Assembly (NCBI GenBank): GCA_947476895.1
Contig: CANJRX010000025.1
Location: 1-33,259 of the forward strand
Origin: Fidelibacterota bacterium
Lineage (GTDB): Bacteria; Pseudomonadota; Alphaproteobacteria; Rhodospirillales; Rhodospirillaceae
DNA: 33,259 nucleotides
Reading direction: 5' to 3'
The notes under the pieces were generated by a model, which had not been told where the DNA came from, searched no databases, and saw only the letters and a list, made by a program, of their open reading frames with translations. The position numbers and the translations under genes are program-made. The number at the start of each line of letters is the position of its first letter. The first letter of the stretch is position 1. Below are positions 1,385-32,123 of this stretch, piece by piece.

Positions 1385-1747
1385 ATGACAACCGTCCTGA
1401 TCGTCGAAGATGAAGCGTTCACCATCGAAATCCTCTCGGCCATTTTGAAGCGCCGCGGGCATGATGTTCTTGTCGCCAACAACGGCGCTGAAGGTGTGGC
1501 GAACGCCCGCAAGAATAAGCCGGACCTCGTGATTATGGACATGAGCATGCCGGGCATGAACGGCTGGGAAGCCATCCGGCAGCTGAAGGGCGCGGCCGAC
1601 ACGAAGGCGATTCCGATTATTGCGCTGACCAGCATGACCACGGCTGAAGACCGCGACGAGGCTTATAGCGCTGGTTGCGACGCCTATGAGGCGAAGCCTA
1701 TCGACGTGCAACGCCTTGAAGAGCGCATCAAGGAACTGATCGGATAA
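1385..1747 (+). CDS. Single-domain CheY-like response regulator
   Basis: This is a 120-residue stand-alone receiver domain. All conserved phospho-switch positions are visible: the acidic pair Asp9/Glu10 ('IVEDE'), phospho-acceptor Asp52 ('LVIMDMSMPGMNG'), Thr82 ('IIALTS') and Lys104 ('AKP'). There is no output domain, so it should act by protein-protein contact or as a phosphorelay shuttle, like CheY- or DivK-type proteins. The length fits a bare receiver. A purine-rich GAGAAGA sits directly before the ATG. No histidine kinase is adjacent, so the partner is an orphan elsewhere. The gene converges on yccF with a single base between stop codons and no visible terminator. Confidence 0.93.
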   Translation: MTTVLIVEDEAFTIEILSAILKRRGHDVLVANNGAEGVANARKNKPDLVIMDMSMPGMNGWEAIRQLKGAADTKAIPIIALTSMTTAEDRDEAYSAGCDAYEAKPIDVQRLEERIKELIG

Positions 1748-1748
1748 G

Positions 1749-2120
1749 CTAGGTAATCGGAACGATAGACGTTCCGACCGGCGCGAGACTCAACCGCGCC
1801 AATTTCAAATGCGCCCAGGCGAACGGCAAGCCGACGATGGTAATGCCCAGCAGGAATGCGCAGATCAGGTGGCCGAGCGCCAGCCACCATCCGGCAAAAA
1901 CAAACCAAATCACATTAGCTATGAAGCTGACCGGGTTTGAACTGCTGTCCTGCATTTGATTGCCAAAGGGCAGCAGGGTGTAGCCGGCGATGCGCAAAGC
2001 GCCCGGCACCCACGGCAAGCCAATAATCGTGATGGCCATGATGCAGGCGGCGAGCAGCCAGCCAAAGGCCATGGCCAGTCCGCCGAAAATCAGCCACAGA
2101 ATATTGAGGATGAGCGTCAT
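1749..2120 (-). CDS. yccF: YccF-family inner-membrane protein
   Basis: This is a 123-residue integral membrane protein made of two repeated halves, each a hydrophobic hairpin ending in an 'ITI(I/V)GLP' turn (near residues 31-36 and 92-97) followed by a short amphipathic segment. That duplicated pattern is diagnostic of the YccF domain; the biochemical role is not established. Its ATG follows the thiolase stop codon with no gap, so it is probably co-transcribed and perhaps translationally coupled as the last gene of the catabolic operon. Nothing in the sequence links it to aromatic catabolism, and it may simply be a hitch-hiking gene. Confidence 0.88.
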   Translation of the reverse strand: MTLILNILWLIFGGLAMAFGWLLAACIMAITIIGLPWVPGALRIAGYTLLPFGNQMQDSSSNPVSFIANVIWFVFAGWWLALGHLICAFLLGITIVGLPFAWAHLKLARLSLAPVGTSIVPIT

Positions 2121-3323
2121 TTAAACCGACTCCAGCAACAGCGAGATGCCCTGTCCCACGCCGACACACATCGTACATAAGGCGTAACGCTGTTTACGCA
2201 ATCCCATTTCAAGCGACGCCGTGAGGGCAAGGCGTGCGCCCGACATGCCGAGCGGATGGCCGAGGGCGATGGCGCCGCCGTTGGGATTAACCTGCGCGGC
2301 GTCGTCGGCGAGCCCAAACTCGCGCAGTACAGCCAAAGCTTGGGCGGCAAAGGCCTCATTCAACTCGATAACGCCGATGTCGCTGATTTTCAGTTTTGCC
2401 TTCGCCAGCAGTTTGCGTGTGGCCGGCACGGGGCCGACGCCCATGATGCGGGGCGCTACACCGGCGGTCGCGCAACTCACCACGCGGGCGCGGGGCGTTA
2501 AACCCCAGCGCTTTACGGCTTCGGCGGAAGCGATAATGAGTGCCGCCGCGCCGTCGTTGACGCCGGAGGCGTTGCCCGCCGTCACCGTGCCACCTGCGCG
2601 GAAAGGCGCGGGCAGTTTGGCAAGTTTTTCGAGTGTAGTGTCGGCGCGGGGATGTTCGTCGGCGCTGACAACCACGTCTTCTTTCCCGCTGCGGTAACGC
2701 ACGGGGATAATTTCTGTCGCAAAGCGGCCCGCTGCCATGGCCGCGCCGGCCCGTTGTTGTGAGCGCAGCGCGAAGGCGTCCTGATCGGCGCGGGAGATGC
2801 TGAAGTCCGCCGCCACGTTCTCTGCGGTTTCCGGCATGGTCTCTGTTCCGTGGCGCTTTTGCAGGGCCGGGTTGATGAACCGCCAACCCATGGTCGTGTC
2901 GTAAAGCGTGTGGTCGCGCGTGTAGGCGCTGTCGGCCTTGCCCATCACAAACGGTGCTCGGCTCATGTTTTCGACACCGCCCGCAATAATAAGGTCGGCT
3001 TCACCGGCCTTGATGCTGCGCGCAGCAAAGGCCACGGCATCGAGGCCCGAGGCGCACAGGCGATTGACAGTGGTGCCCGGTACGCTCTCCGGTAGGCCAG
3101 CCAAAAGTAATGCCATACGGGCGACGTTGCGGTTATCTTCGCCGGCCTGATTGGCGCAACCGAGAATGACATCGTCAATATTCGCCCAATCAATGCTGGG
3201 ATTGCGTTGCATCAACGCCGTCAGCGTCTCCGCCGCCAGATCATCCGCGCGTACGGGTGCAAGCTTGCCGGCGTAGCGGCCGATAGGGGTGCGAATACCG
3301 TCGCAGACAAAAGCTTCAGTCAT
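2121..3323 (-). CDS. pcaF: 3-oxoadipyl-CoA / acetyl-CoA thiolase (PcaF type)
   Basis: This is a 400-residue thiolase-family enzyme. It cleaves a 3-oxoacyl-CoA with CoA, for 3-oxoadipyl-CoA giving succinyl-CoA and acetyl-CoA. Catalytic residues are all in place: nucleophilic Cys90 ('VNRLCASGLDAV'), His356 ('GGAIALGHPLGMSG') and Cys386 ('CVGVGQG'). The 'GCANQAGEDNRNVARMALLLAGLP' region and 'MGKADSAYTRD' are typical of the PcaF/PaaJ subgroup rather than PhaA-type acetoacetyl-CoA thiolases. The length is normal. It lies 12 bp downstream of the CoA-transferase subunit gene, the usual pcaI-(pcaJ)-pcaF arrangement, which supports the final step of the beta-ketoadipate pathway. A general thiolase role cannot be excluded. 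Confidence 0.88.
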   Translation of the reverse strand: MTEAFVCDGIRTPIGRYAGKLAPVRADDLAAETLTALMQRNPSIDWANIDDVILGCANQAGEDNRNVARMALLLAGLPESVPGTTVNRLCASGLDAVAFAARSIKAGEADLIIAGGVENMSRAPFVMGKADSAYTRDHTLYDTTMGWRFINPALQKRHGTETMPETAENVAADFSISRADQDAFALRSQQRAGAAMAAGRFATEIIPVRYRSGKEDVVVSADEHPRADTTLEKLAKLPAPFRAGGTVTAGNASGVNDGAAALIIASAEAVKRWGLTPRARVVSCATAGVAPRIMGVGPVPATRKLLAKAKLKISDIGVIELNEAFAAQALAVLREFGLADDAAQVNPNGGAIALGHPLGMSGARLALTASLEMGLRKQRYALCTMCVGVGQGISLLLESV

Positions 3324-3335
3324 CGGGGATCTCTC

Positions 3336-4043
3336 TTAAACGGGGCGCGGACGCGTGGTGCGGTTCTCAATACGTTTTTCGTAGCCGACGCCTTGAATAA
3401 TGCGATCAACAAAAATGCCCGGCGTGTGCACCGCGTCGCCGTCGATCTCGCCCGCGTCGACAATGTGCTCGACTTCGGCAATGGTGATCTTGCCCGCCGT
3501 TGCCATCACGGGGTTGAAATTGCGCGCGGTTTTGCGAAACACCAAATTTCCCTCGGGGTCCGCCTTCCAGGCTTTCACGATGGAAAGGTCGGCGCGTAGC
3601 CAAGTCTCGCGTACATAAAGTTTGCCGTCGAATTTTTCGGTGGGCTTGCCTTCGGCGGCGATGGTGCCCACGCCGCTGGGCGTAAAGAACGCCGGTATGC
3701 CCGCACCGCCCGCACGAATGCGCTCAGCCAAGGTGCCTTGCGGGTTCAATTCCAACTCCAGCGTTCCATCCAGATACAGGCGCTCGAACAGCTTGTTCTC
3801 GCCGACGTAGGACGCGATCATTTTTTTGATCTGACCGTTATTCAACAACGTCCACAGACCGAAGCCGTCAGCGCCGCAGTTGTTGGAAACCACAGTCATC
3901 TGCTTAACGCCGTTGCGCTTCAGCGCCGCGATCAGGTTTTCTGGGTTGCCCGAGAGGCCAAAGCCGCCGGACATCAGCGTCATGCCGTCGAAGGTCACGC
4001 CTTCTAAAGCTGCGTCTGCACTCGGAAATATTTTACCAGCCAA
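3336..4043 (-). CDS. 3-oxoacid CoA-transferase subunit A (PcaI/ScoA type)
   Basis: This is a 235-residue alpha subunit of a family I CoA-transferase. These heteromers move CoA from succinyl-CoA to 3-oxoadipate or acetoacetate. Visible marks are the 'LMSGGFGLSGNPENLI' glycine-rich N-terminal loop, 'VSNNCGADGFGL', and 'TARNFNPVMATAGKITIAEVEHIV' near the C-terminus. Full length for subunit A. Translation appears to start at TTG (4041-4043), preceded by AGGA about 9 nt upstream. Next to a PcaF-type thiolase, 3-oxoadipate is the likely substrate, though the sequence also resembles ScoA. The beta subunit, which carries the catalytic Glu, is absent from this operon and window; normally it directly follows subunit A. 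Confidence 0.87.
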   Translation of the reverse strand: MAGKIFPSADAALEGVTFDGMTLMSGGFGLSGNPENLIAALKRNGVKQMTVVSNNCGADGFGLWTLLNNGQIKKMIASYVGENKLFERLYLDGTLELELNPQGTLAERIRAGGAGIPAFFTPSGVGTIAAEGKPTEKFDGKLYVRETWLRADLSIVKAWKADPEGNLVFRKTARNFNPVMATAGKITIAEVEHIVDAGEIDGDAVHTPGIFVDRIIQGVGYEKRIENRTTRPRPV

Positions 4044-4081
4044 GGATGCCGTTCCTATTGTTGCATGGTCGAGTATAGCAT

Positions 4082-4906
4082 TTAAAAGCCGTAGAGCTGG
4101 GCGGGATTGTCGACCAAAATCCGCTCCCGGGCCTTTGCATCCGGTACAGCCACGCTGAGCAGATCCACCAATCCCTGATCGTCCGGGACGGGATACTTGA
4201 TGTTCGGATGGGGCCAGTCGGTGCCCCAGAGAATCCTATCCGGCGCGGCGGCGACAAGCTTTTGCGCAAAGGGCACGACGTCGTGGAAGGGCGCGCCGGC
4301 CGCAGAGGCCCGGTCCATGCCAGAGATTTTCACCCAGGCCCGGGGATTGGCGGTCAGCTCAAGCAGTTTTTGAAACGGGGCTTGATCCAGTCCAGCTGCG
4401 GCATTGATGCGCGCCAGATGGTCGATCACAAAGGGGATTTCCAGCGGCTTTAGATATGGCAGCGCTGTTTCCAAATCGTCGGCGCTGAGATGCAACACGG
4501 CATGCCAGCCGAAGGGCGCGATCACATCGGTCACGCGCCGGAAATCGGTGAGGGACGGCGGCGCACCCAGATGCTTCACAAAATTAAACCGCACGCCGCG
4601 TATACCGCCGCGATTCAGGCCCGCGATCTCGTCTTTCGTCACCGTGGTTGGGACAAGCGCGATGCCGCGATAAGCGCCGTGCGATGTGGCAATGGCATCT
4701 AGCGTCACGCTGTTATCGAAGCCATGGCAGCCGGGCTGCACAATCACGCCGCGGTCGATACCGAGACGTTTATGCAAAGCCATGAGCGCTTCTTTAGGCG
4801 CTTCCGGCGGCGTATAGGTGCGCTTGTCGTCATAAGGAAAGCGCGACGTCGGCCCGAAGATGTGGAAGTGGGTGTCGCAGGCCCCTGTGGGCAACGCACC
4901 GCTCAT
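4082..4906 (-). CDS. LigI-like amidohydrolase (2-pyrone-4,6-dicarboxylate lactonase family)
   Basis: This is a 274-residue TIM-barrel amidohydrolase of the LigI-type cluster. It starts with the metal/active-site H-x-H pair (His13, His15 in 'CDTHFHIFGP'), then 'VIVQPGCHGFDNSVTLDAIA', 'GIRGVRFNFVKHLG', 'FVIDHLAR' and the C-terminal Asp motif 'WGTDWPHPN', all matching PDC lactonase. LigI opens 2-pyrone-4,6-dicarboxylate to 4-oxalomesaconate in the 4,5-cleavage route used for protocatechuate and gallate. I chose the ATG at 4904-4906 because its ATGA overlaps the stop of the preceding gene, indicating coupling; the longer frame adds 34 unlikely residues. Related lactonases act on other muconolactones, so the exact substrate is inferred from family and from nearby gallate/ferulate-type esterases. 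Confidence 0.82.
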   Translation of the reverse strand: MSGALPTGACDTHFHIFGPTSRFPYDDKRTYTPPEAPKEALMALHKRLGIDRGVIVQPGCHGFDNSVTLDAIATSHGAYRGIALVPTTVTKDEIAGLNRGGIRGVRFNFVKHLGAPPSLTDFRRVTDVIAPFGWHAVLHLSADDLETALPYLKPLEIPFVIDHLARINAAAGLDQAPFQKLLELTANPRAWVKISGMDRASAAGAPFHDVVPFAQKLVAAAPDRILWGTDWPHPNIKYPVPDDQGLVDLLSVAVPDAKARERILVDNPAQLYGF

Positions 4907-7510: not shown

Positions 7511-9049
7511 ATGACCGGCCGGAACTCATGCGTGATCGCCGCGCTCACAGGGCTGCTGATCGCGCCGGCATTTTTTGGCTCCGCCGCTAACGCTGCGACA
7601 CCTTGCGCGAACCTTTCAGCGCTGACGATCCCGGATGTCAACGTGACGTCGGCCACGCTGGTGCCGGCAAATTCATTTGTAGCACCCGGTGCTCCAGGTC
7701 CGGCCGATCTGCCGTCATTCTGTCGTGTCATCGGCGTCGCGACGCCGAGCGCGGATTCGGTCATCAATCTTGAAGTTTGGATTCCGGCGACCGCAGCTTG
7801 GAACGGCAAGTTTCAAGGTGTGGGCAACAATGCGTTCCTCGGTGCGGTCAGTTATGCCGCCATGGCCGACGCTTTACGCGCCGGTTACGCCGCCGCCAGC
7901 TCCGACGCCGGCCACGTCGGCGGCGAGTTGGATTTCGCCCAAGGACACCCTGAAAAAGTGGCCGATTGGTCTTATCGGTCCGCCCACGTCACGGCTGAGA
8001 CCGCGAAGCAGGTGATCCGCAACGCCACCGGCCGCTGGCCTAGCTATTCCTACTTCAACGGCTGCGACAGCGGCGGCCATCAGGGGTTGATGGAAGCCCA
8101 ACGCTATCCGCACGACTACGACGGCATTATTGCCGGTGTGCCTGCGGCCAACCGGACCGCCGAAATCATGGGCTATCTCGGCATCTGGAAAGCCACGCGC
8201 GACGAAAAAGGCGGTGCACTTTTACCGCTCGATAAGCTGCAACTTGTCACGCGCTCTGCCATGGCCATGTGCGACGGCGACGACGGCGTAAAAGACGGTG
8301 TCATCGACGATCCGCGCCGCTGCAAATTTGATCCGGAGTCACTTATTTGCCGTGGCAGCGATACGGCTGAGTGTTTGTCAGCGGGCCAGGCCGATGCCGT
8401 GAAGAAAGTTTACGGCGGCGTGAAAAATCCGCGCACCGGCGAATTGATCTTTCACGGTTATCCTATCGGTTCGGAAGGCTTCGGCAACGCCGGCCAAAGC
8501 TGGGGGTCTATGGTGAACGGTCCCGGCCCCCGGCGCGGCGAGTTCTTCAAATACTTTGTCTCCAACGATCCCAATTGGGATTGGCGCACCTTTGACTTCG
8601 ATAAGGATGTCGCCTTCACGCGCAAGCAGGCCGGTGTCATCGACGCCATCGATCCTAATATGGAAGCCTTCCGCGCGCGCGGCGGTAAGCTCATCACCTA
8701 CGCTGGATGGGTTGACCCCATTCTGCCCGGTGAAGACGTCATTGCGATTTACGACAAAGTCACCGCCACCATGGGCCGCAAGAATACCGAGAGTTTCATG
8801 CGCCTCTACATGGTGCCAGGCCTCGGCCACTGCAGCGGCGGGCCCGGTGCGACCGAGTTCGACATGCTGCCCGCCCTTGAGCAGTGGGTGGAAAAGGGAG
8901 CTGCGCCGCAAAGCGTCGTAGCCTCGCGCGTAACGTCCGGAAAGGTCGAACGCACGCGGCCCTTATGTCCTTATCCGCAAGTCGCGCGCTGGACCGGTAA
9001 GGGCAGCACCGACGATGCCGCTAATTTTGTCTGTAAAGTCGAACGCTAG
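7511..9049 (+). CDS. Tannase/feruloyl-esterase-family protein, copy 1 (nucleophile motif Cys-Asp-Ser)
   Basis: This is a 512-residue exported protein: signal peptide about residues 1-28 (ending 'SAANA'), then a tannase/feruloyl-esterase alpha/beta-hydrolase with inserted lid (PF07519-type). In this family Ser follows Cys in a G-C-S-x-G-G elbow, with Asp and a His-Cys pair completing a 'CS-D-HC' site. Here the elbow reads GCDSGGHQ: Cys185, Asp186, Ser187, so the expected Ser position is Asp and a Ser sits one residue later. The Asp ('WVDPILPGEDVI') and His-Cys ('GLGHCSGGPG') motifs are intact. The preferred ATG (7511) follows a strong GGGAGGGGG site. It is the first of three tandem paralogues. 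Likely acts in the periplasm or outside the cell on esters of plant phenolic acids, if active. Confidence 0.85.
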   Translation: MTGRNSCVIAALTGLLIAPAFFGSAANAATPCANLSALTIPDVNVTSATLVPANSFVAPGAPGPADLPSFCRVIGVATPSADSVINLEVWIPATAAWNGKFQGVGNNAFLGAVSYAAMADALRAGYAAASSDAGHVGGELDFAQGHPEKVADWSYRSAHVTAETAKQVIRNATGRWPSYSYFNGCDSGGHQGLMEAQRYPHDYDGIIAGVPAANRTAEIMGYLGIWKATRDEKGGALLPLDKLQLVTRSAMAMCDGDDGVKDGVIDDPRRCKFDPESLICRGSDTAECLSAGQADAVKKVYGGVKNPRTGELIFHGYPIGSEGFGNAGQSWGSMVNGPGPRRGEFFKYFVSNDPNWDWRTFDFDKDVAFTRKQAGVIDAIDPNMEAFRARGGKLITYAGWVDPILPGEDVIAIYDKVTATMGRKNTESFMRLYMVPGLGHCSGGPGATEFDMLPALEQWVEKGAAPQSVVASRVTSGKVERTRPLCPYPQVARWTGKGSTDDAANFVCKVER

Positions 9050-9077
9050 ATATAAATGCTGCCGGGGGAGAAGAACG

Positions 9078-10616
9078 ATGAAGCGCCTGGATTATAAGAC
9101 TTTGTTGCTTTCCACAGTGTTGACGATCGCCTGCAGCACGCAGGCTTTTGCTGCCGGTACGCCTTGCGACAAACTCTCAGCGCTCACGATCCCAGACGTC
9201 ACCGTTACTTCGGCGGGCCAAGTTCCCGCCAATGGATTTGTCTCGCCGGGCCAGCAAGCCCCTCTGACCCTGCCGGCTTTTTGCCGTGTGCAAGGCGTGG
9301 CGCGGCCGACCAGCGATTCCGAAATCCGTTTTGAAGTTTGGCTTCCGGCGGCGGCGGCCTGGAACGGAAAATTCCAAGGCGTTGGCACGGGCGGCTACGA
9401 CGGCAGCATCGGCTACAATGCGCTCGCCGAAGGTGTCCGGCGCGGTTACGCCGTCACCAGCACGGACATGGGCCACGTCGGTGGTGACCTGGATTTCGGC
9501 CAGAACCACCCCGAGAAGGTGATCGACTGGGCGCACCGCGCCATGCACGTCACCACGGAAACCGCCAAGCTGATCGTGCGCAACAGCATGGGTCGGTGGC
9601 CGGATTATTCCTACTTCATTGGTTGCGCCACCGGCGGCCATCAGTCCATCGCCGAAGTTCAGCGCTATCCGGAAGACTACGACGGCGTCATCGCGGGCGA
9701 TCCGGCCAACAGCCGTCTGCAGGAAATTGCGGCCTACATTTGGTTTTGGAAAGCGCTTCATGACGAGAAGGGCGCGCCGATCTTAAATCAGGCGAAGCTG
9801 CAGACCATCACTAACGCCGCCACGGCACTGTGCGACGGTGACGACGGCGTGAAAGACGGCGTCATTGACGATCCGCGCCGCTGCAAGTTCGATCCCGCCG
9901 CGTTGTTGTGCAAGGGCGGCGAAACCGATGCGTGCCTCACGCAGCCGCAAATCGACGGCATAAAGAAAGTTTATGCGGGCTTGCGCAATCCGCGCACGGG
10001 CGAGCCAATTTTCCCCGGCTTCGCCATTGGATCGGAAGGCTATGGTGCGCAAGCGGGTCAAGGCTGGGGCGGGTTCCTTGTGAATCCCAAAATTCCCATG
10101 CGTAGCGAAGCCTATACCTACTGGCTGTTTCACGATCCCAATTGGGACTTCCGCACTTTCGACTTCGACAAAGATTTTGCTTACGCGCTCAAGCAAATCG
10201 GCGACGTTTCCTCGACCGATCCGAACTTGAGCGCCTTTAAAAATCGCGGCGGCAAGCTCTTGATGTACACCGGTTGGTCCGACGCCATCCTGCCCGGCGA
10301 AGACGTGATCGAATATTACGAAAGCATCCGCAAAGCCATGGGTGCGCAAAATACCGACGCCTTCATGCGCTTCTTCATAGTGCCCGGCATGGGCCACTGC
10401 AGCGGTGGGCCAGGACCTACCACCTTCGACATGCTGCCCGCGTTGGAGCAGTGGGTCGAGAAAGGCACGCCGCCACAAAACATTCCGGCTTCGCGCGTGG
10501 TTGACGGAAAAGCGCAGCATACGCGCCTGTTGTGCCCCTATCCGCAGGTCGCACGCTGGACCGGTAAGGGCAGCAGCGATGATCGCGCGAATTTTGTTTG
10601 CAAGGTAGAGCGCTAA
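9078..10616 (+). CDS. Tannase/feruloyl-esterase-family protein, copy 2 (predicted nucleophile lost)
   Basis: This is a 512-residue exported paralogue of its neighbours: signal peptide about 1-26 ('CSTQAFAAG'), same fold and length. The nucleophile elbow reads GCATGGHQ, with Cys183 followed by Ala184 (codon GCC at 9627-9629) where copy 3 has Ser. No Ser is within the elbow. The acid ('WSDAILPGEDVI') and His-Cys ('GMGHCSGGPG') motifs remain, as do the structural cysteines and the C-terminal 'LCPYPQVARWTGKGS' block. The reading frame is intact and closely similar to copies 1 and 3, so this is not simple decay. It may be a binding pseudo-enzyme or use another mechanism. GGGGGAG lies 8 nt before the ATG, 28 bp after copy 1. 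Confidence 0.85.
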   Translation: MKRLDYKTLLLSTVLTIACSTQAFAAGTPCDKLSALTIPDVTVTSAGQVPANGFVSPGQQAPLTLPAFCRVQGVARPTSDSEIRFEVWLPAAAAWNGKFQGVGTGGYDGSIGYNALAEGVRRGYAVTSTDMGHVGGDLDFGQNHPEKVIDWAHRAMHVTTETAKLIVRNSMGRWPDYSYFIGCATGGHQSIAEVQRYPEDYDGVIAGDPANSRLQEIAAYIWFWKALHDEKGAPILNQAKLQTITNAATALCDGDDGVKDGVIDDPRRCKFDPAALLCKGGETDACLTQPQIDGIKKVYAGLRNPRTGEPIFPGFAIGSEGYGAQAGQGWGGFLVNPKIPMRSEAYTYWLFHDPNWDFRTFDFDKDFAYALKQIGDVSSTDPNLSAFKNRGGKLLMYTGWSDAILPGEDVIEYYESIRKAMGAQNTDAFMRFFIVPGMGHCSGGPGPTTFDMLPALEQWVEKGTPPQNIPASRVVDGKAQHTRLLCPYPQVARWTGKGSSDDRANFVCKVER

Positions 10617-10632
10617 GGCGCGGGAGAGAAAT

Positions 10633-12177
10633 ATGAAACACAGCACACTCAAGTCTCTGATCCTTGCAACGCCGGTCCTTTTTATGGCCGCGCCCGCCTT
10701 TGCCGCAGCACCGGCTGCCGGGGCAGGTTGTGAAAAGCTTTTGGCCCTGACCATCCCCAACGTCACCGTGACGGCCGCAGGTTACGTGCCCGCGAGCGGC
10801 TTTATCGCGCCGGGCCAGCAAGCGCCCCTGGACCTTCCGGCGTTCTGCCGCGTGCAAGCGGTGGCCACGCCCACCAGCGATTCCGAAATCCGCTTCGAGG
10901 TTTGGATTCCGCCTGCAGCCGCTTGGAACGGCAAGTTCCAAGGTGTCGGCACGGGCGGTTATGATGGCAGCATTAGCTACCCTGCGCTCGCCACTGCGCT
11001 GAAGCGCGGCTACGCGGTCACCAGTAACGATCTCGGCCACACCGGCGGCGATCTTGAATTCGGCCGCGGCCATCCCGAGAAGGTCATCGACTGGGGTTAC
11101 CGCGCTATGCATGTCACAGCGGAAGCCGGCAAACTGATTGTGCGCAATAATACCGGCCGTTGGCCGGAGTATTCCTATTTCGTCGGCTGCTCCACGGGCG
11201 GGCATCAGGCGTTGTCGGAAGCGCAGCGCTATCCCAACGACTACGACGGCATTGTTGCGGGCGATCCTGGCTACGACCGCGTTCATCAGACAGCGTCCTA
11301 CATTTGGCACTGGGCGGCCTTGCACGATGAAAAGGGCGCACCCTTGGTCAATCACGCGAAACTGCAATCCGTCACCAAGGCGGCCATTGCATCTTGCGAC
11401 AAATTGGACGGCGTTGAGGACGGCGTGATCGATGATCCGCGCCGCTGCAAATTCGATCCGGCGTCGCTCGCCTGTTCCGGTGCTGAAACAGATTCCTGCC
11501 TCACGCCCGCACAGGCCGACGGCATCAAGAAAGTCTACGCCGGTCCCAAGAATCCGCGCACGGGCAAATCTATTTTCCCCGGTTTCTCCATGGGGTCCGA
11601 AGGCTACGGCAATGCCGGCTGGAACGGCTTTATCGTTCAGCCTAAAACGCCGATGCGCAATGAGGTTTTCAAATACTTCCTGTTCAACGACTCAAGCTGG
11701 GATTGGCGCAACTTCGATTTCGATAAAGACGTGGCCTACGCCGACAAAAAGCTCGCGCATATGGCCGCCGTCGACACCAACCTCAGCGCTTTCCGCGACC
11801 GCGGCGGCAAGATGATCATGTATACCGGCTGGGCCGATCCGGTCGCAGCCCCCGAAGACGTGCTCAAATATTACGAAGGTGCGGTGAAGAGCATGGGCGG
11901 CTTAGAGAAGACGCAAACCTTCTATCGCTTCTTCATGGCGCCCGGCATGGGTCATTGCGGCGGCGGCTACGGGCCCGACACCTTCGATATGGTCACGGCG
12001 CTGGAGCAATGGGTAGAAAAGGGCGTCGCGCCAAAAAGCGTCATCGCCACAAAGTCCGTCAACAATGCCGTAACGCGTTCGCGCCCGCTGTGCCCCTATC
12101 CGCAGGTCGCGCGCTGGACCGGCAAAGGCAGCACCGATGACGCGGCCAACTTTGTCTGCAAAGCGGCGGAGCGCTGA
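10633..12177 (+). CDS. Tannase/feruloyl-esterase-family protein, copy 3 (canonical triad)
   Basis: This is a 514-residue exported esterase with signal peptide about 1-25 ('APAFAAAP'). It has the full 'CS-D-HC' set of the family: elbow GCSTGGHQ with Cys186-Ser187 (Ser codon TCC at 11191-11193), Asp in 'WADPVAAPEDVL', and His-Cys in 'GMGHCGGGYG'. Family members release gallate, ferulate or related acids from plant esters, and MHETase is a distant relative. Of the three tandem copies this is the only one predicted to work by the standard mechanism. It starts 16 bp after copy 2 behind a GGGAGAG site, so the three are one transcript. The substrate cannot be read from sequence; the aromatic-catabolic operon next door favours a phenolic ester. 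Confidence 0.88.
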   Translation: MKHSTLKSLILATPVLFMAAPAFAAAPAAGAGCEKLLALTIPNVTVTAAGYVPASGFIAPGQQAPLDLPAFCRVQAVATPTSDSEIRFEVWIPPAAAWNGKFQGVGTGGYDGSISYPALATALKRGYAVTSNDLGHTGGDLEFGRGHPEKVIDWGYRAMHVTAEAGKLIVRNNTGRWPEYSYFVGCSTGGHQALSEAQRYPNDYDGIVAGDPGYDRVHQTASYIWHWAALHDEKGAPLVNHAKLQSVTKAAIASCDKLDGVEDGVIDDPRRCKFDPASLACSGAETDSCLTPAQADGIKKVYAGPKNPRTGKSIFPGFSMGSEGYGNAGWNGFIVQPKTPMRNEVFKYFLFNDSSWDWRNFDFDKDVAYADKKLAHMAAVDTNLSAFRDRGGKMIMYTGWADPVAAPEDVLKYYEGAVKSMGGLEKTQTFYRFFMAPGMGHCGGGYGPDTFDMVTALEQWVEKGVAPKSVIATKSVNNAVTRSRPLCPYPQVARWTGKGSTDDAANFVCKAAER

Positions 12178-12229: not shown

Positions 12230-12685
12230 GTGACGCAGTTCAAAATCATCGTGGGCGTTTTTTTAGTCGCTGCGGTAGCGGGCATCGCGGCGTGGTACGG
12301 GCTTCAGCGCGACGTGCCCGCGACGACCACCGACATCACAAATCCACGCTTGGTTGCGCACGGACAGAAAATCTATGCCGAGAACTGCGCCCTCTGTCAT
12401 GGCGTGAACCTGGAAGGGCAGCCGCGCTGGGACCGCATGAAGCCGGACGGAAAACTTCCCGCGCCGCCCCATGATCCTTCGGGCCACACCTGGCACCATT
12501 CCGACCAAAGGCTGTTCCTTATTATAAAGGAGGGTCTCGCCACCGAAGAGGCAACCGACATGCCGATTTTTGGCGGCGTGCTCAGTGATCACGATATCTG
12601 GGCCGTCCTCACTTTTATTAAGAGCACGTGGCCCGAAGACATTCGCAGACGTCAGCCCATTTTCAGATCAGTTCCCGCCTCATAG
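12230..12685 (+). CDS. Membrane-anchored c-type cytochrome
   Basis: This is a 151-residue protein with an N-terminal uncleaved transmembrane anchor (about residues 5-24) and one class I cytochrome c domain facing the periplasm. The haem motif is Cys53-Ala-Leu-Cys56-His57, preceded by 'GQKIYAENC'. The likely distal ligand is Met111 in 'ATDMPIFGG', followed by the C-terminal helix 'DHDIWAVLTFIKSTWP'. The start is GTG at 12230, with only a weak AGGT upstream. It lies 52 bp after the third esterase and is followed by a terminator, so it probably ends that transcript. It may accept electrons from a periplasmic dehydrogenase acting on released aromatic alcohols or sugars, but no such enzyme is in view. 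Confidence 0.87.
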   Translation: MTQFKIIVGVFLVAAVAGIAAWYGLQRDVPATTTDITNPRLVAHGQKIYAENCALCHGVNLEGQPRWDRMKPDGKLPAPPHDPSGHTWHHSDQRLFLIIKEGLATEEATDMPIFGGVLSDHDIWAVLTFIKSTWPEDIRRRQPIFRSVPAS

Positions 12686-12729
12686 CGCGGCGCGGTCGGC
12701 AACTCTCGATTATTTCGCTGCCCGCCTTA

Positions 12730-12751
12730 CCCGGAAAAGTCCGGGATTTTT
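12730..12751 (+). terminator. Rho-independent terminator after the esterase/cytochrome unit
   Basis: A perfect 6-bp stem (CCCGGA / TCCGGG) with a 4-nt AAAG loop is followed by ATTTTT. It lies 45 bp after the cytochrome stop, inside the 179-bp gap before the TonB-dependent receptor. This suggests the receptor has its own promoter. The rest of the gap holds no clear promoter hexamers. Confidence 0.75.
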
Positions 12752-12864
12752 AGTGCCCCAGTTTCTGTGTCTAGTCTGTTACAATTATTGCGGCTATGTG
12801 AGGCCGGAATAAGTGCCGGCTGACTGCTGCGGGCTAAGCGGCAGGTCTAAGTGGAGGGGGATTC

Positions 12865-14814
12865 TTGAACTACGGTAAATTGATCCAGATCGCTGCGCTG
12901 GGCGCAGTGGTCGGCACGACCAATTATGCTTGGGCGCAGCGCGCCAACGACAACGCCCTGGCGTCCGCACAAGACGCCTTTGGCACCACAGTCGGCAATG
13001 AATCGATCGGCTTATATACGTCGCGCGAAGTGCGCGGCTTTGATCCGGTCCAGGCGGGCAATATTCGCCTGGAAGGATTATATTTCGACCGCCAATCTCC
13101 GAACCCCAACGAAATTCTCGTCAGTTCGCTGGTATCGGGCTCCAGCGTGCGCGTGGGCTTAAGCGCGCAGTCGTATCTTTTTCCAGCACCGACCGGCATT
13201 GCCGAAGTGCGCTTGCGTATCCCGGAAGAAGATCTTGTTTACAGCGTGGTCGCAGGGTACGGCGCTTATTCCAAGCTTTCGCTTGAGGCCAATGCGCAGA
13301 TTCCCATCATCACAGATCAATTGAGCGTCAACGTTGCCGGCAGCTATACCCGCGAAGACAATACCGATGCTTCAAGACCCAATTTATATACCGGTGCGTT
13401 CATCGCGCGCTGGACACCCACCGACAATATCGAAGTGATTCCGTTCTGGAGTTACAAGTACACCGACGGCCAGGCACCGCGCGGGAACATATATACCAGC
13501 GGGGCGTTCCTGCCGCCGAAAATCAAACGCCATGTGTCCTTCACCCAGCCCTGGGCCAGGAACTACGGCTACGATGAAAACTTCGGCACCATCGTCAATA
13601 CGTCACTGTCGGATTCTTGGCGTTTGCGCGCCGGTCTGTTCCGTTCGTTGGTTGTGCGTGAGGAGTGGTACAATAATCTTTTCCAGAACACGCAGCCTAA
13701 CGGTCTGTCCGACAGCACGGTTGTCGCCTATCCCTACAACCAGTTCGGTTCTTACTCTGGCGAAGTCCGTCTCTCGAAGGTGTTTACCACGGGTTCCTTC
13801 CGGCATACCGTGACCGGCGCTGTCAGAGGCCGCGTCGTGAAACGGATTTTCGGCGGCACAGATTCGAAATTGCTCGGACCGATCACGATCGGCGTCCTGA
13901 CCGAATATGCAAAACCAGCGTTTGTGTTCCGTCCCACCAATCTGGATAAAGTGCATCAAGGCACCGGCGGTCTAGCTTACGAAGCGCTGTGGGCCGGTGT
14001 CGGCGAGTTCAGTGTCGGCTTGCAAAAAACCTCCTACCACCGGTCGCTGACGGTGCCCGTCGTGGGCGAAACGATTACGCGTGACAGCCCATACCTTCCG
14101 AATGCCACGCTGGCCCTTCACGCCACGAAAGCGTTGACGGTATTCGGCAGCTTCACGCGCGGCCTGGAAGAATCTGGCGAAGCCACAAACAACGCCGTGA
14201 ACCGGGGCGAAGCGCTGCCGGCCATTCGCACCTCGCAGATCGATGCCGGCTTGCGCTACACCCTCATGCCCGGCGTGCAAGCAGTCGCCAGCGTCTTCGA
14301 ATTGAAGAAGCCCTATCTCGGCCTCAACCCATCGAACAGCGTCTTCACGAATGTGGGCAACGTTAAGCACCAAGGCGTGGAAGTTTCGGTTGCGGGCAAA
14401 GTGGCTGACGGCCTCACAGTTGTCGCCGGATCGGTTTTCTTGAAGGCGCGTGTTTCCGGCACCCTGGTGGACGCGGGCATCATCGGCGCTGTTCCGCTGG
14501 GCCGCGTTCCCCGTTCCAGCCACTTCGACGTCGAATACGGCCCATCGTCCTGGAAGGGACTGTCCTTGGACCTGCAGGTCGACAACCGGTCCTCGCGTGT
14601 TGCGACAGCTGACAACCTCGCCCGCATTGAAGGGCGCACGATGGTTAACGTTGGTAGCCGCTATCGGTTCACCATCATGGACGCCAAGACAACGCTCCGA
14701 TTCCAGGTCAAGAACGTCGGCAATACCTTCCGCTGGGACATCAACGGCAACCAGCTGTCTTTGGTCGCCGAGGAAAAGCGCCGATATTCGATCAGTTTGG
14801 CCGCCGATTTCTGA
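12865..14814 (+). CDS. TonB-dependent outer-membrane receptor with short plug
   Basis: This is a 649-residue receptor. A signal peptide (about 1-24, 'NYAWAQ') leads into a plug that begins directly at 'DAFGTTVGNESIGLYTSREVRGFDP' and 'AGNIRLEGLYFD', without the usual preceding plug strands or a recognisable TonB box. The rest is an aromatic-rich 22-strand barrel ending in Phe ('SISLAADF'), as outer-membrane barrels do. The start is TTG at 12865, supported by a strong GGAGGGGG at 5-nt spacing. At 649 residues it is shorter than most siderophore receptors (700-800). Placed after exported phenolic-ester esterases, it probably takes up an ester or released aromatic compound, but iron-chelate uptake is also possible. 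Confidence 0.87.
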   Translation: MNYGKLIQIAALGAVVGTTNYAWAQRANDNALASAQDAFGTTVGNESIGLYTSREVRGFDPVQAGNIRLEGLYFDRQSPNPNEILVSSLVSGSSVRVGLSAQSYLFPAPTGIAEVRLRIPEEDLVYSVVAGYGAYSKLSLEANAQIPIITDQLSVNVAGSYTREDNTDASRPNLYTGAFIARWTPTDNIEVIPFWSYKYTDGQAPRGNIYTSGAFLPPKIKRHVSFTQPWARNYGYDENFGTIVNTSLSDSWRLRAGLFRSLVVREEWYNNLFQNTQPNGLSDSTVVAYPYNQFGSYSGEVRLSKVFTTGSFRHTVTGAVRGRVVKRIFGGTDSKLLGPITIGVLTEYAKPAFVFRPTNLDKVHQGTGGLAYEALWAGVGEFSVGLQKTSYHRSLTVPVVGETITRDSPYLPNATLALHATKALTVFGSFTRGLEESGEATNNAVNRGEALPAIRTSQIDAGLRYTLMPGVQAVASVFELKKPYLGLNPSNSVFTNVGNVKHQGVEVSVAGKVADGLTVVAGSVFLKARVSGTLVDAGIIGAVPLGRVPRSSHFDVEYGPSSWKGLSLDLQVDNRSSRVATADNLARIEGRTMVNVGSRYRFTIMDAKTTLRFQVKNVGNTFRWDINGNQLSLVAEEKRRYSISLAADF

Positions 14815-14944
14815 TACCGATCTTGGCGTGCAGCGCGCCTCTCGTTCTGCTAAAACGGGGTACGGTTAGGAATGTGCAGGGGAGGGAGTCGCTTAGGCGA
14901 ACCCTGCGCTTCGAACGCCACAAATTTAAACAGGGGAGCACTCC

Positions 14945-16075
14945 ATGACTGGAATTCAATTTAGCCGTCGCGATGTGATGAAGACTTTGGCCGTTGGTGC
15001 CGTGGGCGCAGCAACGCTGGCCACGAAAGACGTGAAGGCCGCTGCGGCGCCGGCGACATCCGGCCACAATCCGGGCGCCAAATGGGAATTTCTGGCAAAA
15101 CCGCAAGACGCCGGTTTCGCCACCGACCTCACTAAATTGTCTGAAACGCTGTACCCGCTCTCGACCACCGCATTCATGATCATCCGCGGTGGTAAAGTGG
15201 CTTACTCCTACGGCCACCTTGGCCTCGTAAGCTATCTGGCCTCGTCGCGCAAAAGCCTGATGTCGATGCTTTATGGCAAATACGTCGCCAACGGCACCAT
15301 CAAGCTCGACACCACACTCGGCGAACTGGGCATCGACGACGACCAGGGCCTGCTGCCCATCGAAAAGACCGCCACCATCCGTCACGTGCTCATGGCCAGC
15401 TCGGGTGTTTATCATCCGGCGGGCAGCCCGGGCGGCAGCGAAAATGGGCCGAAGCGCGGCTCCGTGAAGCCCGGCGAAAACTTTCTCTACAACAACTGGG
15501 ACTTCAACGTTGCCGGCGCGATTTTCCAGCAGCTCACGGGCAAAAGCGTGCATCAGGCTTTCGCCGACGATCTCGCAGGCCCCTTGCAGATGGAAGACTT
15601 CGATCTGTCGCGTCAACGCATGATGGGTTACGTGCCGCGCCGTTCCAAATACCTGGGCTATCACTTCTTCCTGTCGGGCCGCGACATGGCGCGCCTAGGC
15701 CTGTGCATGGTCAACGGCGGCAAGTGGAACGGCAAAGAAGTCGTGCCCGCTGCTTGGGTCAAGGAAAGCACTCAGATTCATGTGCCCGGTTCCAAGATCG
15801 CCGGTGATCACTCGGAAGGTTACGGCTATCTGTGGTGGATCCCGACCGAATCCCGCAAGGGTCCGGAATGGGTTGGCTCCTATGCCGCGCAAGGCAACTA
15901 TGGTCAATTCATCATCGGCCTGCCGGCGCTCGATATGGTGGTGGTGCATCGCCGCGCCGTCACCGACGAGTTCGCCATCGCGCGTAACGTCGGCGCGACC
16001 AACGGCTCACCGGCCGGCGGCGAAGTCTCGATCCTGCCGATCGTCGATCAGATCGTCGCGTCGCTGCGCGCTTAA
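14945..16075 (+). CDS. Tat-exported serine hydrolase (class C beta-lactamase/esterase fold)
   Basis: This is a 376-residue SxxK serine hydrolase. The N-terminus carries a twin-arginine signal ('SRRDVMKTLAVGAVGAATLA'), so folded export by Tat is likely. Catalytic motifs are Ser100-x-x-Lys103 ('SSRKS'), Tyr182-x-Asn184 ('YNN') and a degenerate third box near 'AQGNYGQF', as in family VIII esterases and beta-lactamase-like amidases. The start ATG has AGGGGAG upstream. Neighbouring tannase-type genes and a receptor suggest an esterase on phenolic or carbohydrate esters rather than antibiotic resistance; sequence alone does not decide. It ends the plus-strand unit at a strong bidirectional terminator. 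Confidence 0.87.
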   Translation: MTGIQFSRRDVMKTLAVGAVGAATLATKDVKAAAAPATSGHNPGAKWEFLAKPQDAGFATDLTKLSETLYPLSTTAFMIIRGGKVAYSYGHLGLVSYLASSRKSLMSMLYGKYVANGTIKLDTTLGELGIDDDQGLLPIEKTATIRHVLMASSGVYHPAGSPGGSENGPKRGSVKPGENFLYNNWDFNVAGAIFQQLTGKSVHQAFADDLAGPLQMEDFDLSRQRMMGYVPRRSKYLGYHFFLSGRDMARLGLCMVNGGKWNGKEVVPAAWVKESTQIHVPGSKIAGDHSEGYGYLWWIPTESRKGPEWVGSYAAQGNYGQFIIGLPALDMVVVHRRAVTDEFAIARNVGATNGSPAGGEVSILPIVDQIVASLRA

Positions 16076-16142: not shown

Positions 16143-16517
16143 CTAGGCGACCTCGCCGCGGCTGCGATGCGTGTCAGCCAGCCCTATCCAGGCCATTTCA
16201 TTGGTGGGTTCGCGCGCGAGTACGGCTGCGAACGTTTTGCGCGCCAGATCCGATTGTCCAAGGTGCTGGAAAACCGCGCCGATATTGTGAAGGGCTTGGG
16301 TACGCTGCGGATCCAGGGCGAGGGTGCGTTGAAAGGCAGTCAACGCCTCGCTCGCGCGCCCTGCATTAAATAGCGCCATACCGAGCTTGAAATGTATGTC
16401 AGCTGCATCGGGTGCTAGGTCGCGCGCTTGCGTGAAGGCCGCGATAGCCGGCACCAAGTCGCCGCGCTGGTAGGCTTGCAAGCCGTGGTCGAAAAGCCGC
16501 TGCGCTTCAGAATGCAT
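16143..16517 (-). CDS. Tetratricopeptide-repeat protein
   Basis: This is a 124-residue soluble protein built of about three TPR units: 'AQRLFDHGLQAYQRGDLVPAIAAFTQARDLAPD', 'ADIHFKLGMALFNAGRASEALTAFQRTLALDP' and 'TQALHNIGAVFQHLGQSDLARKTFAAVLAREP', with a partial fourth. Consensus small and aromatic positions are kept. No signal peptide or other domain is seen, so it is a protein-protein adaptor in the cytoplasm. It is divergent from the 2OG oxygenase, with 79 bp between starts. TPR proteins are often linked to 2OG/prolyl-hydroxylase-like oxygenases, so the pair may work together, but that is inference. Confidence 0.88.
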   Translation of the reverse strand: MHSEAQRLFDHGLQAYQRGDLVPAIAAFTQARDLAPDAADIHFKLGMALFNAGRASEALTAFQRTLALDPQRTQALHNIGAVFQHLGQSDLARKTFAAVLAREPTNEMAWIGLADTHRSRGEVA

Positions 16518-16596
16518 GTTGAGCCGGGTTGCCCCAAGGGTTGCCGGAGTTCAGGCGACTATAATAATGTGCAATCGCCATCACGCAGGAGGAAAA

Positions 16597-17199
16597 GTGG
16601 AAATTCCGCCGCCCCATTGTCAGATTCCCAATTTCCTTCAGCCCCAGGAAATGGCGGTAGTGACGGCGCATGCTTTGGCGCATGAGAAAGAGCTTGAGGA
16701 CGCCACGATCTCTACGCCGTCCACGCAAAGCGCATCGTCTCCAGTTTACGGCATCCGCCGCGCGAGGATTCTCAACAACGTCGGCGCACTGCTGCCGTTG
16801 ATTATCCCCAAAATCCACACTCTGTTGCCGAGGCTGTGGCCGATCTGGCGCATGGAACCACTGACGTTCAGCAGGATCGAATGTCAGCTTTCGGTCCACG
16901 GCGACGGCGATTACTTCAACACCCACACCGATAACGGCCTGCCCGATATCGCGCATCGGCGCATAAGTTACGTCTATTATTTTCACCGCGAACCGAAACA
17001 GTTCACCGGCGGGAACTTGCGCCTCTACAATACGCAAGGCGATACGAATGAGTGCGGGGCGCTGGCCCACGACGTCGCGCCGCCCAGCAACAGCCTGATG
17101 ATTTTTCCCAGCCACATCTATCACGAGGTCACGCCGATCACCTGCGCCTCTAAGGCTTTGACCGACCAACGGCTGACCGTGAACGGCTGGCTGATTTAG
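16597..17199 (+). CDS. 2OG-Fe(II) oxygenase (prolyl-4-hydroxylase-like)
   Basis: This is a 200-residue double-stranded beta-helix dioxygenase using 2-oxoglutarate and Fe(II). The iron triad is His110-x-Asp112 ('NTHTDNG') and His176 ('SHIYHEVTPI'); Arg192 ('DQRLTVNGWL') should bind the 2OG carboxylate. The frame is open further upstream, but I place the start at GTG 16597 because a perfect AGGAGG (16587-16592) precedes it. The protein lacks a signal peptide. Relatives hydroxylate proline or other residues on proteins or small peptides. The substrate is unknown; the divergent TPR protein is the nearest candidate partner. Confidence 0.86.
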   Translation: MEIPPPHCQIPNFLQPQEMAVVTAHALAHEKELEDATISTPSTQSASSPVYGIRRARILNNVGALLPLIIPKIHTLLPRLWPIWRMEPLTFSRIECQLSVHGDGDYFNTHTDNGLPDIAHRRISYVYYFHREPKQFTGGNLRLYNTQGDTNECGALAHDVAPPSNSLMIFPSHIYHEVTPITCASKALTDQRLTVNGWLI

Positions 17200-17288: not shown

Positions 17289-19091
17289 ATGCAATTAACT
17301 CGCTTTCTTATCCCGTTCACGGCTGCACTTGCCATGCCTGTGGTGGCCACGGCGGCCGAACAACTGTCGCCGACGCGTTATATCGAAGACGTGAAATTCC
17401 TCGCGAGCGACGCGATGCAAGGGCGCGGCAATGGTTCGCCGGAATTAGAGCAAGCGGCTGAATATATCTCCGCGCAGTTCCGTGCGTCGGGTCTGCAGCC
17501 TGCCGGTGAGGACAAAGGATACTTTCAGGCTTTTGAAATCACCACGGGCGCGACCTTGGGCGCTAAGAACGAACTTAAGATCGGCGACACTGTTCTTAAG
17601 ATCGACGCCGACTTCGTTCCCATCGTGTTTTCCGATACCGCGCAGTTCGATGGTCCGCTGGTGTTCGCCGGTTACGGCATTACCGCGCCCGAATACAAAT
17701 ACGATGACTACGCCGGTATTGATGCCACCAACAAAATTGTCGTGGCCTTTACGCACGAGCCGCAGGAACTCGATACCAAAAGCGTCTTCGCGGGCACCGA
17801 CTACACGGTTCATGCGTCTTTCGTGAACAAAGCCATCAATGCCCGCATGCATGGCGCGAAAGGCATCGTGTTCATCACTGACCCTTCCCACGACTACGAA
17901 GAGGTGGGCACCGCCACACGCCGCGAGCAGGCGGGCGATATTAGCATCCCTTCCGTTCACGCAAAGCGCGCGGTGATTGTCGAAGCCTTCAAAAAAGGCG
18001 GCAAAGACCTGGCCGAGATTCGAAAGGCCATCGACAAAGATTTAGCGCCGCAATCCTTTGAGGTGCCGGGCTTGACGGCCCACATCGCCACCGATGTTAC
18101 GCGCATCCGTAAAAAGGTGCGCAACGTGATTGGGGCGTTGCCGGGAACGGACCCCCAGCTCAAGGACGAATGGATTGTGATCGGCGCACATTATGATCAC
18201 TTGGGTCTGGGCGGCGCGAGCTCTATGGCGCCGTCGCTCATCGGCCAACCGCATCACGGTGCGGACGACAATGCCTCGGGTACAGCCGGCGTGATGGAAT
18301 TGGCACGTGTGGCCGCGAAAAGCCCCAATGCCCGAAAACGCTCAATCCTGTTCATGGCTTTTGCGGGCGAGGAAGTTGGCTTGCTGGGCTCGTCCCATTT
18401 CACGAACGATCCGACCATTCCACTGGCCTCCATCGATGCCATGATCAACATGGATATGATCGGCCGCGTTTCAAACAATCGCATCACGGTCGGTGGCGTG
18501 GGTACGTCGCCCAGTTTTAAACCTGCGTTAGATGAGTTCGCGCCGCGCAGCGGTCTTACCGTTCAACCCACTGAATCTGGCTACGGCGCCAGCGACCAGA
18601 CTGCATTTAATGCGAAGAAAATACCGGTATTGTTTTTCTTTTCCGGCACGCACACCGATTATCACAAGCCTTCGGACACGGCCGATAAGATCAACACGGC
18701 CGGCGCGGTTAAAGTGCTCGCGTTAGTGCAGCAATTGACCGAACGCTTTGCAGGCGAACCGGAGAAGCTGGTTTACGCCGAGGTCCAGGAGCCGCGTAAT
18801 AGCGGCCGCGGTTCGGGCGGCGGGTATGGCCCGTTTTTCGGATCAGTGCCGGACTTCCGCGACGATATCAAAGGTGTGCTGTTCGCCGATGTCGTTAACA
18901 ATAGCCCAGCGGCAAAAGCCGGCCTGAAGGGCGGCGATATCATGGTCGCCTTCGATGGCAAGACAGTGCAGTCGCTCAACGACTACGCCTTTATCCTGCG
19001 TCAGAAAAAGCCCGGCGATGTCGTGGTTGTCGGTATCAAACGCGGCGACAAGGACATGACCGTGAATGTCACGCTTGAAGCCCGGAAATAA
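17289..19091 (+). CDS. Exported M28-family zinc aminopeptidase with PA and PDZ domains
   Basis: This is a 600-residue secreted or periplasmic peptidase. It has a signal peptide about 1-22 ('PVVATAAEQ'), a PA insert (about 115-245), the M28 catalytic domain (about 275-485) and a C-terminal PDZ domain (about 515-598). Two-zinc ligands and catalysis are visible: His301 ('GAHYDHLG'), Asp326/Asp327 ('GADDNASG'), Glu361-Glu362 ('GEE'), Asp389 ('NMDMIGR') and His459 ('TDYHKPSD'). The catalytic set is complete, so activity is expected. PDZ-tailed M28 proteins are common in proteobacteria and often act on exported peptides. No clear Shine-Dalgarno precedes the ATG. It forms an operon with the propeller protein 19 bp downstream. 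Confidence 0.92.
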   Translation: MQLTRFLIPFTAALAMPVVATAAEQLSPTRYIEDVKFLASDAMQGRGNGSPELEQAAEYISAQFRASGLQPAGEDKGYFQAFEITTGATLGAKNELKIGDTVLKIDADFVPIVFSDTAQFDGPLVFAGYGITAPEYKYDDYAGIDATNKIVVAFTHEPQELDTKSVFAGTDYTVHASFVNKAINARMHGAKGIVFITDPSHDYEEVGTATRREQAGDISIPSVHAKRAVIVEAFKKGGKDLAEIRKAIDKDLAPQSFEVPGLTAHIATDVTRIRKKVRNVIGALPGTDPQLKDEWIVIGAHYDHLGLGGASSMAPSLIGQPHHGADDNASGTAGVMELARVAAKSPNARKRSILFMAFAGEEVGLLGSSHFTNDPTIPLASIDAMINMDMIGRVSNNRITVGGVGTSPSFKPALDEFAPRSGLTVQPTESGYGASDQTAFNAKKIPVLFFFSGTHTDYHKPSDTADKINTAGAVKVLALVQQLTERFAGEPEKLVYAEVQEPRNSGRGSGGGYGPFFGSVPDFRDDIKGVLFADVVNNSPAAKAGLKGGDIMVAFDGKTVQSLNDYAFILRQKKPGDVVVVGIKRGDKDMTVNVTLEARK

Positions 19092-19110
19092 AGTTGGGGA
19101 TATAAACGCT

Positions 19111-32080: not shown

Positions 32081-32123
32081 TAGACCCCCCAAGCCCCCGC
32101 CATTGGTTAGGCGGCATAAAGCT

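Follow-up and report, generated by a model that had tools for sequence, protein, structure and literature searches.

The window analysed in this study is the whole stretch of DNA presented above, a contig of 33,259 bases (CANJRX010000025.1, which is the entire contig C25 of assembly G000, 2.7 Mb in 46 contigs). It contains three adjacent genes for tannase-family proteins (PF07519, a family whose enzymes cleave gallate, ferulate or similar esters), here called copies 1 to 3, which we are inclined to read as one active esterase (copy 3) alongside two retained pseudo-esterases (copies 1 and 2). The catalytic Ser at the GC-S-x-GG nucleophile elbow is present in copy 3, and its position is occupied by Asp in copy 1 and by Ala in copy 2. 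An earlier note on this DNA had counted one copy as lacking Ser, a count that has to be raised to two (Asp186 of copy 1 and Ala184 of copy 2). The triad acid and the base with its adjoining Cys are kept as Asp402 and His440-Cys441 in copies 1 and 2 and as Asp402 and His441-Cys442 in copy 3, and the triad Asp and His-Cys are present in the three orthologues found in another species as well. These orthologues lie on the contig L037 (CAITZE010000097.1, “uncultured bacterium isolate Umea_bin-03200”), which is contig C97 of the same-genus genome G050, and they follow the order of the window (GCDTGG at 134-1669, GCATGG at 1710-3239 and GCSTGG at 3242-4801). Since the L037 and G050 stretches are identical, they represent one further carrier species and not two. 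Both nucleophile replacements are therefore shared by two species at about 70% protein identity, and because the second species keeps them, they appear to be permanent replacements and not errors or signs of decay.

The placement of the replaced residues follows from the alignment of copy 1 with the Aspergillus oryzae feruloyl esterase AoFaeB (3wmt). The earlier note had proposed mapping the elbow on this enzyme, and when this was done Asp186 fell opposite the nucleophile Ser of GCSTGG, while Asn107-Ala108 fell opposite the two glycines of GNGG. In AoFaeB the nucleophile is S203 and the oxyanion glycine is G125 (PMC6461665); by hand count in that numbering, Ala108 of copy 1 aligns with G125. 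The oxyanion-loop Gly-Gly, corresponding to MHETase positions 131 and 132, is present in copies 2 and 3, and copy 1 reads Asn-Ala in both species. Among 6,671 sequences of the family, 91% carry Gly at position 131 (PMC7568301). The nucleophile codons in the window and in L037 are GAC and GAC for copy 1, GCC and GCC for copy 2, and TCC and TCG for copy 3. A change from Ser TCC to Ala GCC is a single step, and one from Ser TCC or TCG to Asp GAC takes at least two base changes. In addition, all six proteins of the two trios share ten invariant Cys. In the family, ten Cys form five disulfides, one of which links the Cys of the elbow with the one that follows the His; the match in the trio is at the level of sequence, in which the disulfides themselves are not visible.

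Two neighbouring residues were considered as substitutes for the missing Ser and ruled out. The earlier note had suggested that in copy 1 the Ser was shifted by one, to Ser187. This was rejected because the L037 orthologue reads GCDTGG, with Thr at what is the variable x of C-S-x-G-G. Similarly, Thr185 of copy 2 was ruled out as a stand-in nucleophile, as the same Thr adjoins the intact Ser in copy 3 and its orthologue. As for conservation of the elbows themselves, GCATGG is identical in L037, whereas GCDSGG is conserved in its Asp and not in its Ser. Orthologues with Ser at these sites, which the earlier note named as a sign of sequencing error, are absent from the only orthologous trio found (one species).

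On the reading preferred here, copy 3 would very probably hydrolyse an aromatic ester, as its family and motifs suggest. Copy 2, in which the nucleophile is fixed as Ala, should not be capable of acyl-enzyme formation. Where it stands in the array and the conservation of its active-site region suggest that it binds a ligand or works with a partner, and its most likely role, without hydrolysis, would be as a ligand-binding or partner protein for that ester or the products derived from it. Copy 1 departs further, its nucleophile (Asp) and its oxyanion loop (Asn-Ala) both being changed and both changes conserved. It would no longer count as a serine esterase of the classical kind, and a non-esterase role is most likely for it too, Asp-nucleophile catalysis being a minority reading.

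The earlier note had envisaged that, after tandem duplication, the nucleophile was lost without decay, and the comparison of orthologues supports this. Besides the retention of Asp and Ala, the ratios of nonsynonymous to synonymous divergence (dN/dS, NG86 method, orthologue genes trimmed at the 5' end) are low, at rough values of 0.111 for copy 1, 0.130 for copy 2 and 0.112 for copy 3. They resemble the values for neighbouring genes, which are 0.197 (2OG-Fe(II) oxygenase), 0.117 (M28 peptidase) and 0.132 (PD40 protein). There are 269 columns that at least 11 of 12 close homologues conserve; of these, 184 are kept by both orthologues in copy 1, 185 in copy 2 and 200 in copy 3. Conservation was also compared between an active-site zone, defined as the surroundings of the elbow, oxyanion loop, acid and base, and the rest of each protein. 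It is 56/68 (82%) versus 291/410 (71%) in copy 1 (p 0.057), 56/68 (82%) versus 286/408 (70%) in copy 2 (p 0.041) and 61/68 (90%) versus 310/414 (75%) in copy 3 (p 0.008). This comparison, a weak test in the case of copies 1 and 2, gives no sign of active-site release. Copies 1 and 2 combine the loss of an essential residue with purifying selection, the combination by which a pseudoenzyme is recognised, in two species only and with synonymous divergence (dS) near saturation.

A careful tree with 22 rows (bootstrap/Shimodaira-Hasegawa-like approximate likelihood-ratio test) places the trio in one clade at 100/100 and recovers the copy 1 pair at 100/100 and the copy 3 pair at 100/98; a quick tree of 67 rows gave the same groups. 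Each copy pairs with its own orthologue and the gene order is shared, and therefore the duplications and both nucleophile losses are most likely older than the divergence of the two species. Copy 1 has a stem 0.35 long, compared with 0.045 for copy 2 and 0.088 for copy 3, the latter two following a common segment of 0.14. Outside the trio, the nearest relatives are 12 proteins with 58-61% identity to copy 3, all 12 with Ser and Gly-Gly. Two belong to named Acidobacteria assemblies and the other ten to genomes sampled as the order of one of those two, and a transfer between phyla is possible. No further trio-level match was found in 73 genomes of the bacterial family, 317 of the order, 162 of the order to which the L038-holding genome belongs, and samples of 385 from the class and 398 from the phylum, with up to four candidates scored per genome in the 317 and up to three in each of the two samples. 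A scan of genome contigs gave 25 loci, and the trio occurs in one of them (L037).

Several points weigh against this reading. Only two species are known to carry the trio, and the copy 2 orthologue pair is recovered at 91/90 in the 22-row tree, under the starred support level. The dS values of 1.4-1.9 are near saturation, which is why the dN/dS values are rough. The dN values of copies 1 and 2 (0.213 and 0.209) are about a third higher than that of copy 3 (0.156), and the end branches of the window proteins in the 22-row tree are 0.34 each for copies 1 and 2 versus 0.21 for copy 3. Copies 1 and 2 may therefore have undergone some relaxation. The L037 end branches are alike (0.17, 0.15 and 0.16 for copies 1 to 3). 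Furthermore, the binding or partner role proposed for copy 2 is reached by exclusion only, and the retained Asp and His would also fit hidden catalysis of another kind.

Loss of the nucleophile is rare in the family. The Ser is present in 184 of 194 distinct family open reading frames (ORFs), one further ORF of the 195 having no readable elbow and being left uncounted, and in 7 of 7 found in 120 genomes sampled from the phylum, giving 191 of 201. This sample is weighted toward the bacterial family of the window and its close kin, and the 201 is a plain sum of 194 and seven, two sets that may overlap. The search of the 73 genomes listed matches no weaker than E 1e-60; at least six matches (G071:C16, G065:C46, G066:C5, G069:C4, G063:C348 and G059:C66), as well as the plasmid matches, stand outside the family reading. 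The ten exceptions without Ser are four trio proteins and six members of one clade with Gly at the elbow (L193, L195, L197, L209, L213 and L216, from G010, G006, G068, G071, G065 and G066, respectively). Members of this clade read GC-G-TGG, their acid Asp is changed to Glu, and the His is lost in four of the six; a second tannase-family ORF was not found within the 14-18 kb read around each. Oxyanion Gly-Gly, found in 150 of the 194, is common and not universal. Among the same 194, Asn at the first oxyanion position occurs only in copy 1 and its orthologue, and Ala at the second occurs in 22, of which 20 bear the Ser. In nine other tandem tannase arrays among the loci examined, all 20 of the 20 genes carry Ser, so Ser loss does not follow from tandem duplication alone. 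A paralogue on contig C1 of G000 (L130:10270-12018) has the elbow GCSGAG and lies in tandem with one reading SCSGGG. In the titles and abstract openings found, a partial coverage with subscription papers mostly outside it, no tannase-family protein with a fixed nucleophile loss is described.

Copy 1 could instead be an active Asp-nucleophile hydrolase of the alpha/beta fold, which we regard as unlikely. Asp186 would attack a carbon electrophile (an epoxide, a halide or an activated alkyl group), forming an alkyl ester that water activated by His440-Asp402 would then cleave, as in epoxide hydrolases and haloalkane dehalogenases. Ser-to-Asp replacement with an altered oxyanion loop would, on this improbable account, have turned copy 1 from an ester hydrolase into a C-O or C-halogen hydrolase, its tandem neighbours being a serine esterase of the parent type and a binding partner with an Ala elbow. 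Such an enzyme is conceivable because an elbow Asp with His and acid is the dehalogenase and epoxide hydrolase arrangement, and chemistry of this Asp/His/acid type occurs in the same fold (PMC7034887, PMC7538969). G-C-D-S/T-G, Asp402 and His440 are conserved in both species, the Asp demanded more than a single base change from the observed Ser codons, and the loop is altered too (G107N, G108A), with an Asn shared by no other of the 194 relatives. However, little beyond this favours the idea. Copy 1 has no Pfam match beyond PF07519 and no NCBIfam match, a Ser or Thr follows the Asp, and G108A alone means little because 20 Ser-bearing relatives have the same Ala. Haloalkane dehalogenases also carry halide-binding residues. 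Epoxide hydrolases carry cap tyrosines (PMC7538969).

It is also quite unlikely, in our view, that in copies 1 and 2 the His-Asp dyad works by general acid/base catalysis with no nucleophile, in a lyase- or dioxygenase-like manner. Chemistry of both kinds exists in other alpha/beta-hydrolase-fold proteins, and Asp and His are kept in all four Ser-less trio proteins, versus the frequent loss of His in the Gly-elbow clade, but the two residues may persist for the sake of the fold or of ligand binding. That copies 1 and 2 are fresh inactivated duplicates yet to decay seems very improbable. Tandem tannase arrays are common in the genomes examined and the raised dN of these copies would suit such a history; against it, the same states recur in a species about 70% identical and near synonymous saturation, dN/dS stays at 0.11-0.13, and start signals and frames are intact. 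An error of sequencing, assembly or binning deserves hardly any credence. Both carriers are draft assemblies, and L037 is by its title a contig from a binned metagenome, but two distinct assemblies agree on the residues (codons GAC, GCC and TCC/TCG).

The features of the locus are collected in the table below. As the earlier note had it, the trio consists of three full-length tandem ORFs with open frames, N-termini resembling Sec signal peptides (judged by eye) and the Asp and His-Cys motifs in place. The genes lie head to tail at 7511-12177 with gaps of 28 bases (copies 1/2) and 16 bases (copies 2/3), and a Shine-Dalgarno-like purine-rich stretch precedes every start; it precedes 9078 in copy 2, which is why this start is favoured over 9015. 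The PF07519 profile scores are 377.1, 393.1 and 420.5 bits for copies 1 to 3 (curated cut-off 29.8), covering profile positions 1-490, 1-490 and 2-490, respectively. Copies 1 and 2 are members of the family by descent, but as enzymes they lack its catalytic Ser. GC content at third codon positions (0.69, 0.71 and 0.73) is inside the range of the other ORFs of the window. From the spacing and the N-termini, the trio is probably an operon of three secreted paralogues.

Table. Features of the tannase-family trio and its downstream neighbours, in window coordinates.
Feature	Position	Strand	Remark
Copy 1, PF07519 tannase-family protein	7511-9049	+	512 aa; elbow GCDSGG
Copy 1, oxyanion loop Asn107-Ala108	7829-7834	+	
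Copy 1, nucleophile position Asp186	8066-8068	+	codon GAC
Copy 1, acid Asp402 to base His440	8714-8830	+	Asp402 8714-8716, His440 8828-8830; both kept
Copy 2, PF07519 tannase-family protein	9078-10616	+	512 aa; elbow GCATGG
Copy 2, nucleophile position Ala184	9627-9629	+	codon GCC
Copy 2, acid Asp402 to base His440	10281-10397	+	Asp402 10281-10283, His440 10395-10397; both kept
Copy 3, PF07519 tannase-family protein	10633-12177	+	514 aa; elbow GCSTGG; complete Ser187-Asp402-His441 triad
Copy 3, canonical nucleophile Ser187	11191-11193	+	codon TCC
c-type cytochrome	12230-12685	+	not at this place in L037
TonB-dependent-receptor-like protein	12865-14814	+	under model cut-off; not at this place in L037
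Beta-lactamase-family protein (PF00144)	14945-16075	+	not at this place in L037
2OG-Fe(II) oxygenase	16516-17199	+	downstream block common to L037
M28 peptidase	17289-19091	+	downstream block common to L037
PD40 protein	19066-20169	+	downstream block common to L037

The genes at 12230-16075, between the trio and the downstream block, would reflect either an insertion or a loss. Upstream, on the opposite strand, are genes for an SDF-type transporter, a CMD-family protein, 3-oxoacid CoA-transferase subunit A, 3-oxoadipyl-CoA thiolase and an amidohydrolase resembling 4-sulfomuconolactone hydrolase (below the model cut-off), a set that fits aromatic catabolism. The thiolase gene adjoins that of subunit A at 2121-4043, and no gene for subunit B was recognised among the scanned neighbours. 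A further PF00144-like gene of the same genome (L129:1959-3182, contig C41, by eye) also lies beside a tannase-family gene (L129:3356-4987), and a functional link between the two kinds of gene is possible. Elsewhere in the window, two similar tandem genes on the minus strand (29622-30782 and 30920-32092) appear glycosyltransferase-like by eye in their translations.

These results have a consequence for annotation, in that PF07519 membership taken by itself labels Ser-less proteins as esterases (10 of the 201 sequences here). If copy 1 did prove to be Asp-catalytic, it would show that nucleophile chemistry can be switched in nature within this family.

Among known systems, the Aspergillus oryzae feruloyl esterases (PDB 3wmt, 6g21) and PDB chains named “Carboxylic ester hydrolase” (6fat, 8bhh, 9hun) match most of copy 1, and their elbow Cys, acid, base and His-Cys line up with its own. 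They differ in having the nucleophile Ser where copy 1 has Asp and copy 2 has Ala, and in the oxyanion Gly that copy 1 lacks. Haloalkane dehalogenases and epoxide hydrolases share the elbow Asp, His and acid with copy 1, but copy 1 does not belong to them by sequence. Neuroligin-type and other catalytically dead proteins of the alpha/beta-hydrolase fold keep the fold without the catalytic Ser. The neuroligin-type proteins, however, are eukaryotic adhesion proteins of another subfamily, whereas the trio belongs to the bacterial tannase family and its Ser-less members stand beside an intact paralogue. MHETase of Ideonella sakaiensis (PDB 6qz3, 6qga and others), which aligns with copy 1 in two pieces, shares PF07519, the triad acid and base, the elbow Cys and the ten cysteines. 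Its nucleophile S225 is a Ser, and the inactive laboratory mutant S225A has the state that is fixed naturally in copy 2 (PMC7568301). Copy 2 would thus be a natural and evolutionarily stable counterpart of the S225A experiment, and because it stands beside an intact paralogue, the role of a dead tannase-family protein becomes directly testable.

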